Positions 24,414-31,250 of a stretch of 64,000 bases of DNA are shown piece after piece (position 1 is the first letter of the stretch; every line of letters begins with the position of its first letter). A program made the position numbers and the translations under genes. The notes under the pieces were generated by a model. The model was not told the DNA's origin. It made no database searches and worked only from the letters and a program-made list of their open reading frames with translations. The stretch spans positions 3,938,001 to 4,002,000 of the forward strand of contig NZ_CP146232.1 of assembly GCF_037040815.1 (NCBI RefSeq), written 5' to 3'. The DNA is from Pararoseomonas sp. SCSIO 73927. Its GTDB lineage: Bacteria > Pseudomonadota > Alphaproteobacteria > Acetobacterales > Acetobacteraceae.

Positions 24414-24497
24414 GCGGGCGTGGTGGAATGGCAGACACGCTGGATTTAGGTTCCAGTGGCGCAAGCCGTGGGGGTTCAAGTCCCTCCGCCCGCACCA
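24414..24497 (+). tRNA. tRNA-Leu (anticodon UAG)
   Basis: An 84-nt tRNA with acceptor stem GCGGGCG paired with CGCCCGC, anticodon loop TTTAGGT (anticodon TAG) in a CTGGA/TCCAG stem, a long variable arm as in class II tRNAs, T-loop GTTCAAGTC and an encoded CCA end. Confidence 0.97.
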
Positions 24498-24543: not shown

Positions 24544-26340
24544 ATGCAGGTGACGGAGCTCTCGGCCGAGGGGCTGAAGCGGTCCTTCTCGGTGGTGGTG
24601 CCGGCGGCGGAGATCGAGGCGACGCGCGACAAGCGGCTCGCCGCGCTGGGCCGCGACCTGCGGATCCCGGGCTTCCGGCCGGGCAAGGTGCCGATGTCCG
24701 TGGTGAAGAAGCGCTACGGCACGGCCGTGACGGGCGAGGTGCTGGAGGAGCAGGTGCAGACCGCCACGCGGGACCTGCTGACCGAGCGCGGCCTGCGCCC
24801 GGCGCTGCAGCCGAAGGTGGAGCTGGTCGGCGATTTCGCCGACGGCGCCGACCTGGCCTTCAACATCGAGATGGAGGTCCTGCCGGAGATCCCGATGCCG
24901 GACTTCTCGGGGATCGAGGTGGAGCGCCCGCGCGCGGAGGTCTCCGACGAGGAGGTCCAGAAGGCCGCCGACGGCCTGGCCGCGCGGAACGCCAAGCTGG
25001 AGGACGTGGCCGAGGAGCGCCCGGCGCAGAAGGGCGACGTGGTGGTGTCCGACTTCGTGGGCCGGCTGGTCTCGAACAGCGGGGCGAACCTTCTTCCGGA
25101 GGGCACGGTCCTGGTCGAGTCCAATCCGCCCGGCGCCGCCACGCTGGCCGGCGAGGGCGAGGAGGGCGGCGCGCGCTACCTCGACGCCCGCGTCAAGGTG
25201 AGTGAGGGGTTGAACGCGATCCGCATCGACCTCTCGCGGACGATGCTGCCCGTGACCGGTGGGCAGGACTACCGTCTCTCGGCCGAGTGGCAGGTCGTCG
25301 AGGGGTCGCTGCCCGAGGGTGCCGTGGCGCAGGCCTTCCTGACCGCGCAGCAGAGGGGCCCCTCTGCGGCCGCCGAGCGCAAGACCGTGGCGCTGCCCGG
25401 CGCCGGGCCGATCGCGGCGGAGTGGACGGCCGAGGCCGATGGCACCGGCCGCGTCGGGCTGAGGCTGGACTTCGGCGCGCCGGTGGCCGCCGACTTCACC
25501 CTGCGGGTCCGCTCGGCCCGCTTTGAGGGGCCGGGGGACGGGGAGTCCGTCGGCGAGCCCTTCCCGGGCGGCACTGCGAGCGACATGCCGATCGAGGTGG
25601 GCGGCGAGGGCTTCATCCCCGGCTTCACCGAGGGGCTGGAGGGCATCCGCCCCGGCGAGACCCGCAAGGTGCGGGTGAGCTTCCCCGAGAGCTACGGCTC
25701 GGCCGAGCTGGCGGGCAAGCCGGCGGAGTTCGAGATCACCGCCAAGGCGCTGAAGACCCGCGCCCCGGCCCCCGCGGACGACGAGTTCGCGAAGTCTCTC
25801 GGCCTGGAGAGCGCGGAGAAGCTGCGCGAGGAGCTGCGGAACTCCATCCAGGGCGAGTATGACGGGCTGGCGCGCCTGCGCGTGAAGCGCGCCCTGCTGG
25901 ACCAGCTGGCCGACCGCGCCAGCTTCGCCGTGCCCGAGGGCATGGTGGAGGCCGAGTTCGGCCAGATCTGGGGCCGCGTGGAGGAGGACCGCAAGGCGGG
26001 CCGCCTCGACGCCGAGGATGCCGGCAAGGACGAGGAGACGCTGCGGGCCGAGTACCGGAAGATCGCCGAGCGGCGCATCCGGCTGGGCCTCCTGCTCTCC
26101 GAGATCGGGCGGACGAACAACATCCAGGTCGGCCAGGACGAGCTGTTCCAGGCGATGCGCCGCGAGGCGTCCCGCTACCCCGGGCAGGAGAAGCAGGTCT
26201 TCGAGTTCTTCCAGAAGAACCCGCAGGCGCTGGAGAACCTGCGCGCCCCGATCTTCGAGGAGAAGGTCGTGGACTTCATGCTGGAGCTGGCCAAGGTGAC
26301 GGACCGGACCGTGACCGCGGAGGAGCTGCAGGCCGCCTGA
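24544..26340 (+). CDS. tig: Trigger factor with a large insertion in the PPIase domain
   Basis: Ribosome-associated chaperone and prolyl isomerase. The ribosome-binding domain is residues 1 to about 120 (GFRPGKVP at 43-50 as signature loop). The FKBP-type PPIase domain starts at KGDVVVSDFVGRLV (163-176) and resumes at GESVGEPFPGGTASDMPIE (333 on) through ITAKALK. The C-terminal helical chaperone domain follows. The protein is 598 residues where the family is usually 430-490. The excess is about 155 residues inserted after the first PPIase strand, rich in alternating beta strands and reminiscent of a jelly-roll carbohydrate-binding-like fold (NLLPEGT, YRLSAEWQV, DFTLRVRSARFE). Reading frame and codon use are intact throughout. 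Confidence 0.95.
   Translation: MQVTELSAEGLKRSFSVVVPAAEIEATRDKRLAALGRDLRIPGFRPGKVPMSVVKKRYGTAVTGEVLEEQVQTATRDLLTERGLRPALQPKVELVGDFADGADLAFNIEMEVLPEIPMPDFSGIEVERPRAEVSDEEVQKAADGLAARNAKLEDVAEERPAQKGDVVVSDFVGRLVSNSGANLLPEGTVLVESNPPGAATLAGEGEEGGARYLDARVKVSEGLNAIRIDLSRTMLPVTGGQDYRLSAEWQVVEGSLPEGAVAQAFLTAQQRGPSAAAERKTVALPGAGPIAAEWTAEADGTGRVGLRLDFGAPVAADFTLRVRSARFEGPGDGESVGEPFPGGTASDMPIEVGGEGFIPGFTEGLEGIRPGETRKVRVSFPESYGSAELAGKPAEFEITAKALKTRAPAPADDEFAKSLGLESAEKLREELRNSIQGEYDGLARLRVKRALLDQLADRASFAVPEGMVEAEFGQIWGRVEEDRKAGRLDAEDAGKDEETLRAEYRKIAERRIRLGLLLSEIGRTNNIQVGQDELFQAMRREASRYPGQEKQVFEFFQKNPQALENLRAPIFEEKVVDFMLELAKVTDRTVTAEELQAA
25072..25539 (+). other. Inserted beta-sandwich-like domain within trigger factor (residues about 177-332)
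   Basis: The encoded segment lies between the first strand and the bulk of the FKBP domain, starting SNSGANLLPEGT and ending RVRSARFEGPG. It has the layout of galactose-binding-like or CBM_4_9-type jelly rolls: NLL near the start, a mid-domain Y-x-L-S-x-x-W strand, an E-W-T-A-E strand and a final R-x-x-x-A-R-F-E strand. That fold assignment is pattern recognition, not a search result. Confidence 0.6.
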
Positions 26341-26523: not shown

Positions 26524-27201
26524 ATGACCCGTTCCGTATTCGTCGACCGCGACCCGGTTGAACTCTACAACAACTCGCTGGTCCCCATGGTCGTCGAGCA
26601 GACGGCCCGCGGCGAGCGCGCCTTCGACATCTACTCCCGCCTGCTGAAGGAGCGGATCATCTTCCTGACGGGCCAGGTCTTCGACCAGGTCTCGTCCCTG
26701 ATCTGCGCCCAGCTGCTGTTCCTGGAGAGCGAGAACCCCAACAAGGACATCGCCTTCTACATCAACAGCCCGGGCGGCGTGGTCTCGGCCGGCCTCGCGA
26801 TGTACGACACGATGCAGTACATCCGCTCCCCCGTCTCCACCGTCTGCCTGGGCATGGCGGCCTCCATGGGCTCCCTGCTGCTGACGGCCGGGGAGAAGGG
26901 CAAGCGCTTCGCCCTGCCGAACAGCCGGATCATGGTCCACCAGCCCTCCGGCGGCGCCCAGGGACAGGCGACGGACATCGAGATCCAGGCCCGCGAGATC
27001 CTGGACCTGCGCAAGCGCCTGAACCAGATCTACGTCCACCACACCGGCCAGCCGGTGGAGGAGATCGAGCGCAAGCTCGAGCGCGACACCTACATGTCCG
27101 CCGAGGAGGCGCAGGCCTTCGGGCTGATCGACCAGGTGGTGGCGAAGCTGCCGGCGGGGGCCGCCGTGGCGGCGCCGGCGGTGGAGGGGCCGCGCCCCTG
27201 A
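26524..27201 (+). CDS. clpP: ATP-dependent Clp protease proteolytic subunit
   Basis: Serine protease barrel that degrades proteins fed by ClpX or ClpA. The 225-residue product has the catalytic triad Ser114 (GMAASMGS), His139 (IMVHQPSGG) and Asp188 (LERDTYM). [17 protein letters not shown] and the [10 protein letters not shown] helix are family marks. The last 20 residues are an Ala/Pro-rich tail beyond the usual core. GGAAGGA precedes the ATG. It is followed by clpX and lon in the conserved alphaproteobacterial tig-clpP-clpX-lon order. Confidence 0.97.
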
Positions 27202-27370: not shown

Positions 27371-28627
27371 ATGAGCAAGTCCGGCGATTCCAAGAATACC
27401 CTTTACTGCTCGTTCTGCGGCAAGTCGCAGCACGAGGTCCGCAAGCTCATCGCCGGCCCGACGGTGTTCATCTGCGACGAGTGCGTCGAGCTGTGCATGG
27501 ACATCATCCGCGAGGAGCACAAGACGCACCTCGTGAAGACCCGCGACGGGGTGCCGACGCCGAAGGAGATCTGCAAGGTCCTCGATGATTACGTCATCGG
27601 GCAGGAGCACGCGAAGAAGGTGCTCTCCGTGGCCGTGCACAACCACTACAAGCGGCTGGCTCACGGCGCGAAGAACGGCGAGGTGGAGATCGCGAAGAGC
27701 AACATCATGCTCGTCGGCCCCACGGGCTCGGGCAAGACGCTGCTGGCGCAGACCCTGGCCCGCATCCTCGACGTGCCGTTCACGATGGCGGACGCGACCA
27801 CGCTGACGGAGGCGGGGTATGTCGGCGAGGACGTGGAGAACATCATCCTCAAGCTGCTGCAGGCCGCGGACTACAATGTGGACCGGGCGCAGCGCGGCAT
27901 CGTCTACATCGACGAGGTGGATAAGATCAGCCGCAAGTCGGACAACCCCTCGATCACGCGCGACGTGTCGGGCGAGGGCGTCCAGCAGGCGCTGCTGAAG
28001 ATCATGGAGGGCACGGTCGCCTCCGTCCCGCCCCAGGGCGGCCGGAAGCACCCCCAGCAGGAGTTCCTGCAGGTGGACACCTCCAACATCCTCTTCATCG
28101 TGGGCGGCGCCTTCGCGGGGCTGGAGAAGATCATCGCGGCCAAGGGCAAGGGCTCCGGCATCGGGTTCGGCGCCGAGGTGAAGGGGCCGGACGAGCGCCG
28201 GCAGGGCGCCATCCTGCGCGAGGTGGAGCCGGAGGACCTGCTGAAGTTCGGGCTGATCCCCGAGTTCATCGGCCGCCTGCCCGTCATCGCGACGCTCGAG
28301 GACCTGGACGAGAAGGCGCTGATCGAGATCCTCACTAAGCCGAAGAACGCGCTGCTGAAGCAGTATCAGCGCCTCTTCGAGATGGAGGGGACGAAGCTCA
28401 CCTTCACGGAGGACGCGCTGAAGTCGGTGGCCAACCGTGCCATCCAGCGCAAGACCGGCGCCCGCGGCCTGCGCTCCATCATGGAGGGCATCCTGCTCTC
28501 GACCATGTTCGACCTGCCTGGTCTGGACGAGGTCGAGGAGGTGGTGGTGAACAAGGAGGTGGCCGAGAACCGGGCGCAGCCGCTGTTCATCTACGGTGAA
28601 CGGCCGGCGGAGCAGACTAGCGCCTGA
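27371..28627 (+). CDS. clpX: ATP-dependent Clp protease ATP-binding subunit
   Basis: AAA+ unfoldase delivering substrates to ClpP. The 418 residues begin with the C4 zinc-finger domain (CSFCGKS near 12-18, CDECVELC near 36-43). Walker A is GPTGSGKT, Walker B is [10 protein letters not shown], and the tyrosine pore loop and arginine sensors lie in conserved positions. The start at 27371 ([10 protein letters not shown]) is the family start. The 169-bp gap from clpP may hold its own promoter: CTTTTG, 14 bases, CCATCCTT resembles a heat-shock site, weakly. Confidence 0.97.

Positions 28628-28820: not shown

Positions 28821-31250
<2,430 letters not shown>

Follow-up and report, generated by a model that had tools for sequence, protein, structure and literature searches.

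A predicted β-sandwich module with phage-tail kinship inserted in the prolyl-isomerase domain of trigger factor in Roseomonas-type Acetobacteraceae

Trigger factor is a cytosolic chaperone that is near-universal in bacteria, usually in a single architecture, and its GFRxGKxP signature functions in ribosome binding. We take the gene order in E. coli to be tig-clpP-clpX-lon. In a different FKBP protein, SlyD, a chaperone domain is inserted in the flap loop of the FKBP domain (PMC11013033). Here we describe a trigger factor from Pararoseomonas sp. SCSIO 73927, encoded by tig within a 64,000-nucleotide stretch of contig NZ_CP146232.1 (positions 3,938,001 to 4,002,000; hereafter the window), which carries a domain-sized insert in another loop of the FKBP domain. 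The insert is predicted to fold as a β-sandwich, and its profile is homologous to modules of phage tail proteins and tail-like adhesins. The gene and its domains are laid out as follows.

24544..26340, + strand: tig, trigger factor, 598 residues (open reading frame (ORF) translation, Pfam, TIGR00115)
24544..24972, + strand: N-terminal ribosome-binding domain, residues 1-143 (Pfam Trigger_N, 137.4 bits)
24670-24693, + strand: ribosome signature GFRPGKVP, residues 43-50 (motif)
25039..25071, + strand: first FKBP strand VVVSDFVGRLV, residues 166-176, leading into the insert (alignment; strand predicted at residues 166-178)
25072..25524, + strand: inserted module, predicted β-sandwich, residues 177-327 (alignment with insert-free relatives, structure prediction, fold matches, profile homology to phage-tail and adhesin modules)
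25525..25551, + strand: EGPGDGESV, residues 328-336, equivalent to the nine-residue loop of insert-free relatives in the window's group (alignment)
25552..25761, + strand: remaining FKBP domain, residues 337-406, with F340 and GFIPGFTEGLEG intact (Pfam FKBP_C at residues 337-399, 44.4 bits; the end at residue 406 is our choice)
25813..26286, + strand: C-terminal chaperone domain, residues 424-581 (Pfam Trigger_C, 128.1 bits)

All three domains scored above their curated Pfam cut-offs (22.2 for Trigger_N, 21.1 for FKBP_C and 22.7 for Trigger_C), as did the whole protein in TIGR00115 (388.6; cut-off 180.2), and the translation has no internal stop. The FKBP_C match covers profile positions 22-92; its late start is explained by the first strand, which is displaced by about 160 residues towards the N terminus. 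This was the single trigger factor match found in the window's genome, where 22 of 31 candidates were scored. Relative to the nearest insert-free relative, Pararoseomonas indoligenes (L112), whose core is 97% identical to the window's, the extra segment comprises 151 residues, and EGPGDGESV aligns with the whole nine-residue L112 loop, EGEGDDAVV. DFVGRLV and EPFPGG flank the insertion point, which corresponds to DFTGS/VDGEEF of E. coli (L112 against 1w26) and is located directly before a phenylalanine that we assign, presumptively, to the FKBP pocket. The first-pass annotation had reported an over-long trigger factor with a domain-sized FKBP insert at residues 177-332; the insert is confirmed, the bounds were correct within five residues, and the quoted motifs NLLPEGT, YRLSAEW and RVRSARFE are present in the translation.

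We compared this protein with other trigger factors, using 79 named loci (the best of 186 by similarity to P0001, and hence biased to close kin) plus the window. After two fragments (L137 and L144) and two partial sequences (L103 and L106) had been left out, 76 were kept. A segment at the same site was present in 36 of them, from independently sequenced genomes, with a length of 153-179 residues including the residual loop (160 in the window); of the remainder, 20 had 5-9 residues in the loop and 20 had one. An unusual length alone might point to misassembly, a frameshift or an intein-like element that is spliced out. However, separately sequenced genomes carry the insert in frame, which rules out an assembly or gene-calling artefact; 37 members had no match to an intein family in Pfam or NCBIfam; and the ORF is continuous, with codon usage near that of the core and a GC content at third codon positions (GC3) of 0.938 in the insert against 0.988 in the core. 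The probability of an artefact is therefore negligible. The ribosome signature GFRPGK[VI]P was kept in all 36 insert-bearing and all 40 insert-free rows, and the IPGF stretch was retained in insert rows, with variant forms, indicating that ribosome docking and the FKBP fold should work despite the insert.

Structure prediction on the insert alone gave a β-sandwich with CBM-type fold matches (CBM, carbohydrate-binding module), on which basis disorder and a plain FKBP extension were both rejected. The top structural matches of this insert-only model in a VIA search were CBM22, CBM4 and CBM16, and the predicted fold is that of a jelly-roll, CBM-like β-sandwich of the CBM4/16/22 type. The same search also found this fold in proteins that are not known to us for sugar binding, such as a chain of the complex I assembly intermediate 7zkq. 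Against a viral structure library, 13 of the 50 rows shown were named tail, tail fibre or minor tail and three were CenC-type carbohydrate-binding; the other rows shown had different or uninformative names, and many alignments extend past the insert. The predicted fold was conserved across very large divergence, as were a few positions occupied by glycine, proline, leucine or arginine. PHROGs, Pfam and NCBIfam gave no firm family for the insert.

Sequence searches connected the module to phage proteins. When 50,697 phage records were searched by tblastn with an insert from Neoroseomonas, one phage (two records) was matched, Azospirillum phage Cd, in its tail protein gp49 (29.5% identity, expect value (E) 2e-6); five plasmids were matched as well, one of them at no better than E 0.02. 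We built a profile (A2) from 17 trigger-factor inserts; in 60 genomes it detected the module beyond trigger factors in proteins of about 415 residues in relatives (E 3.5e-25 to about 2e-9, with a few weaker), whereas scans of contigs based on the A2 alignment yielded no sufficiently conserved stretch. One of these matched gp49 over half its length (40.8% identity, E 5e-20), and we accordingly label them tail-like. One family of such proteins (L055-L060, about 408-425 residues) has the motif NPRxEGAxxG, the CBM-like module and then a second conserved region; Pfam on four whole proteins gave one CBM_4_9 match below cut-off and three without a match. We then built a module profile (A4) from nine of 12 fetched module stretches plus phage Cd, dropping L063, which had no spanning ORF, and L065 and L066, which resemble L054. 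In hhalign it aligned with a profile of 27 trigger-factor inserts (A5) over 169 columns (99.7%, E 4.7e-26) and with the window insert alone over 125 columns, excluding the N-terminal part (95.6%, E 1.3e-8). The window insert has neither the N-terminal NPRxEG motif, for which the consensus of trigger-factor inserts has NGxxLGAxPGxPG as counterpart, nor the C-terminal PxLP linker. Profile homology without these motifs makes it a diverged relative of the gp49-type module rather than a member.

A scan of viral contigs with the module profile confirmed 69 of 219 candidate stretches, at 66 distinct loci. In a large protein collection, where the 8000 candidates with the most words in common and lengths near the query's were scored, 45 of the 46 matches listed for the Neoroseomonas insert (query included) were trigger factors or their fragments, and the remaining one (P0150, 982 residues) was read as tail-like. 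Since the module is broad in viral contigs and narrow in trigger factors, we infer that it moved from phage-type proteins to trigger factor and not the reverse. In a quick tree of inserts, a branch with support of 98 in the approximate likelihood ratio test (SH-aLRT) divided adhesin and phage modules from trigger-factor inserts. This split opposes repeated separate captures from adhesins and suits one family of trigger-factor inserts, for which a single origin is possible rather than proven. Recent copying from the organism's own adhesin was rejected, as the A2 profile found no second module copy in its genome at E 0.01 (59 of 123 candidates scored). With the whole protein as query, tblastn matched 32 phage and 28 plasmid records. 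Among the matches listed (20 phage and 15 plasmid rows), identity stayed below 60%, no single place accounted for 80% of the query, and no phage or plasmid copy of an insert-bearing trigger factor was present.

Given the fold, the insert might still bind a glycan as carbohydrate-binding modules do. Besides the CBM22, CBM4 and CBM16 matches, this is favoured by a CBM_4_9 match in one of ten related modules (E 1e-4, under the Pfam cut-off) and by two columns that remain aromatic in 83% and 87%, respectively, of 30 trigger-factor-type inserts; the window has Y212 in the second column. By contrast, the PxxW aromatic kept by most relatives is absent from the window insert, and a column that is aromatic in seven of ten adhesin/phage modules is aromatic in none of the 30 inserts. 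Pfam yielded no CBM family, either with the window protein and its insert (E up to 10) or with 37 members (E up to 1). Composition also differed: serine, threonine and asparagine made up 14% of 37 trigger-factor-type inserts versus 23% of ten adhesin/phage modules, and charged residues 18% versus 10%, which would suit a cytosolic protein. The cytosolic location of trigger factor and the shared fold of the 7zkq chain likewise count against sugar binding, which we regard as very improbable. Of the initial proposal of a jelly-roll, carbohydrate-binding-like module, the predicted fold is thus supported and sugar binding is not, though the aromatic evidence is not final, since other aromatic columns are kept, one of them in the window (Y212).

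The insert is lineage-restricted, in line with the first-pass annotation, and patchy in Roseomonas-type Acetobacteraceae. Trigger factor was found in 230 of 249 genomes drawn from the family, and at least 16 of these gave one match spanning the whole query, insert included: 2/6 in the window's genus, 3/5 in g16, 3/3 in g87, 4/4 in g126, 3/3 in g52 and 1/1 in g5. Sixteen is a lower bound, as a very diverged insert may split the match and the weakest matches lie outside those listed. All 26 rows of Neoroseomonas and the freshwater clade have the insert, whereas four sister pairs differ in it (window/L112, L068/L104, L070/L117 and L072/L124). L083 also carries it while its sisters L129, L138 and L139 have a one-residue loop; the L083 insert is perhaps a separate gain.

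On a core tree from which the insert was omitted, presence and absence took nine changes, seven of them forced by well-supported branches. We then took 11 rows of the window's group, added three as outgroup to make 14, and built one DNA tree from their core and one from clpP-clpX-lon, the latter serving as species-tree markers. Each tree took four changes, and a single clade of the four insert-bearing rows of the group was rejected (approximately unbiased test, p-AU 0.00082 and 6e-50). All seven insert-free rows of the group share the nine-residue loop EG[ED]G[DE][DE]A[TVK][VA]. By a manual count on the trees, the alternative to three gains into this loop is five to seven losses. The gains are the simpler history, and they are favoured because separate deletions would hardly all leave the same loop pattern. 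The group's inserts fall into one cluster (SH-aLRT 90), and for this reason the module was most probably gained through recombination with relatives whose alleles carried it. Identity dips to 79-87% just 5' of the insert in three of four sister pairs, over few aligned bases. A synonymous rate (dS) higher in the insert than in the core, as in several pairs (L069/L071, 0.67 vs 0.20), would be compatible with allele replacement, but the signal is not usable given how uncertain the alignment is at 35% identity.

We estimated substitution rates for 20 chosen pairs by NG86. The nonsynonymous rate (dN) of the insert was 1.8 to 30 times that of the core, and its dN/dS varied among lineages: 0.07-0.12 in three freshwater-lineage pairs, indicating strong purifying selection; 0.23-0.85 in eight Neoroseomonas pairs; and 0.73-1.13 in five pairs of the window's group, where inserts were 29-58% and cores 89-92% identical and where values near saturation do not demonstrate relaxed or positive selection. 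These values bear on the strongest rival explanation, a near-neutral passenger: a tolerated decoration in the loop of a spareable domain, folding harmlessly and drifting in and out. Patchy presence, with at least seven forced changes, and a dN/dS near 1 in several pairs are what a passenger would show. Purifying selection in the freshwater lineage, the predicted fold and the few residues kept over such divergence, and the unbroken presence in Neoroseomonas and freshwater rows speak against it, as does the insert's occurrence in second trigger factor copies of two genomes. We consider a passenger possible, if on balance doubtful.

Those second copies (L146:7755-9623, + strand, G140, and L147:7167-9719, − strand, G195, both genus g126) stand beside a main copy, are 39-42% identical and keep the GFRPG stretch. 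A further insert-bearing sequence, in G013 (L064:7175-9172, − strand), is a degenerate trigger-factor-like paralogue with a 665-residue ORF; Trigger_C scored 46.7 bits, Trigger_N fell under its cut-off, and neither an FKBP match nor GFRxGKxP was found. The other G013 trigger factor (L014) lacks the insert, and a search of 150 family genomes for the paralogue at E 1e-60, run with no positive control, gave no match.

The phage kinship allows another reading, a recognition module in an arms race, which would bind changing partners such as same-fold phage structural proteins leaving the ribosome, or would offer a surface exploited by phage proteins. Module kin in phage tail proteins, very high amino-acid change and gain or loss between sisters agree with it; yet no partner is known, and fast change is expected of a passenger as well. 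We looked at 15 same-genus genomes, scoring 59 first-look candidates in each. A module copy outside trigger factor occurred in two of four insert-bearing genomes (G001 and G007; not G000 or G002) and in eight of 11 insert-free ones (G003, G004, G008-G012 and G014; weak in G010). With no co-occurrence, the adhesin was rejected as a client of the insert, and we hold the arms-race reading to be rather improbable. A bolder and likewise unlikely version is an exchangeable cassette, in which the conserved codons flanking the FKBP loop would let a phage-tail-derived recognition module recombine from one species into another, and the module would diversify because it meets changing partners, possibly phage proteins from the same ribosomes. 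If true, the first chaperone of the ribosome would bear a variable, antibody-like recognition head.

Taken together, the explanation that we favour, at a probability of about 50%, is capture followed by an accessory role. A β-sandwich module akin to those of phage tail proteins and tail-like adhesins would have entered the trigger factor of Roseomonas-type Acetobacteraceae at the loop that follows the first FKBP strand, with several gains or losses there since. It would fold by itself and stand on a hairpin beside the prolyl-isomerase pocket, most likely as an accessory surface that contacts client chains or restricts access to the pocket, much as the inserted domain of SlyD aids its FKBP domain. 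Docking on the ribosome and the work of the C-terminal cradle would proceed as in an ordinary trigger factor. The insert, its homology, patchiness and fast evolution and the intact ribosome-binding and FKBP motifs are read from sequence, and the fold from structure prediction. The client-contact role we infer by analogy, at about even odds.

Several observations weigh against this explanation. Close sister species live without the insert, so it is not needed for the basic work of trigger factor, and its site differs from the SlyD flap. The full-protein model has a predicted template modelling score (pTM) of 0.48, leaving the domain-to-domain geometry unsure. A single gain requires 15 losses on the midpoint-rooted core tree where nine changes suffice, the direction of each change not being fixable, and flank identity of the sister pairs reveals no long imported tract. 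In nine pairs from the Muricoccus and Pseudoroseomonas groups, inserts were 22-65% and cores 84-96% identical, with dN/dS of 0.3-1.2, several near saturation; at such divergence selection on these inserts is not measurable, and a passenger would look alike. The fastest lineages, the window's included, are without measurable constraint on the insert.

Around tig, the window has the gene order tRNA-Leu, tig, clpP, clpX, lon, the last three names and the starts of clpP and clpX being assigned in this analysis.

24414..24497, + strand: tRNA-Leu, just 5' of tig (ARAGORN)
26524..27201, + strand: clpP (ORF list)
27371..28627, + strand: clpX (ORF list)
28821..31250, + strand: lon (ORF list)

In Neoroseomonas and freshwater loci, L073 among them, tig seems to lie apart from clpP-clpX-lon, as the retrieved flanks contain none of the three on the tig strand; in L073 the ORF list of both strands contains no clpP, clpX or lon. 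Two public entries start inside the insert, P0109 (392 residues, Neoroseomonas eburnea) at residue 219 of a 610-residue ORF and P0100 (416 residues, N. marina) at residue 194 of a 609-residue ORF, so the ribosome-binding domain is missing from both.

A trigger factor insert of this kind appears new to the literature: no description was found in full-text searches, which covered open sources and few subscription journals, and an insert-bearing trigger factor was not met in the accessible parts of PMC11013033, PMC9287376, PMC8185961 and PMC8573040. A module of phage-tail kinship beside the isomerase site, in one species but not its sister, amounts to a natural domain-insertion experiment, and suggests that a core housekeeping protein can acquire phage-type adhesin modules.

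The window protein shares with trigger factor (TIGR00115; E. coli 1w26) the domain order, ribosome signature, FKBP motif and C-terminal domain, and with the E. coli gene the downstream clpP, clpX and lon; it differs by 151 extra residues in the loop that reads DFTGS-VDGEEF in E. coli. CBM families 4, 16 and 22, Pfam CBM_4_9 and LtfC are only about 8-15% identical to the insert, which reaches no CBM family and has lost some of its relatives' aromatics. To Azospirillum phage Cd gp49 and the tail-like modules (NPRxEGAxxG...TLRI...PQLE) it is tied by profile homology, similar length and the same fold class; unlike them, it lacks NPRxEG, the PxxW tryptophan and the PxLP linker, is more charged and sits inside a cytosolic chaperone. 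SlyD and SlpA likewise have a folded domain near the prolyl-isomerase site of an FKBP (PMC11013033). The window insert, a predicted CBM-like sandwich of phage-tail kinship, lies instead in the loop that follows the first strand, outside the flap, which we take to be a different loop.
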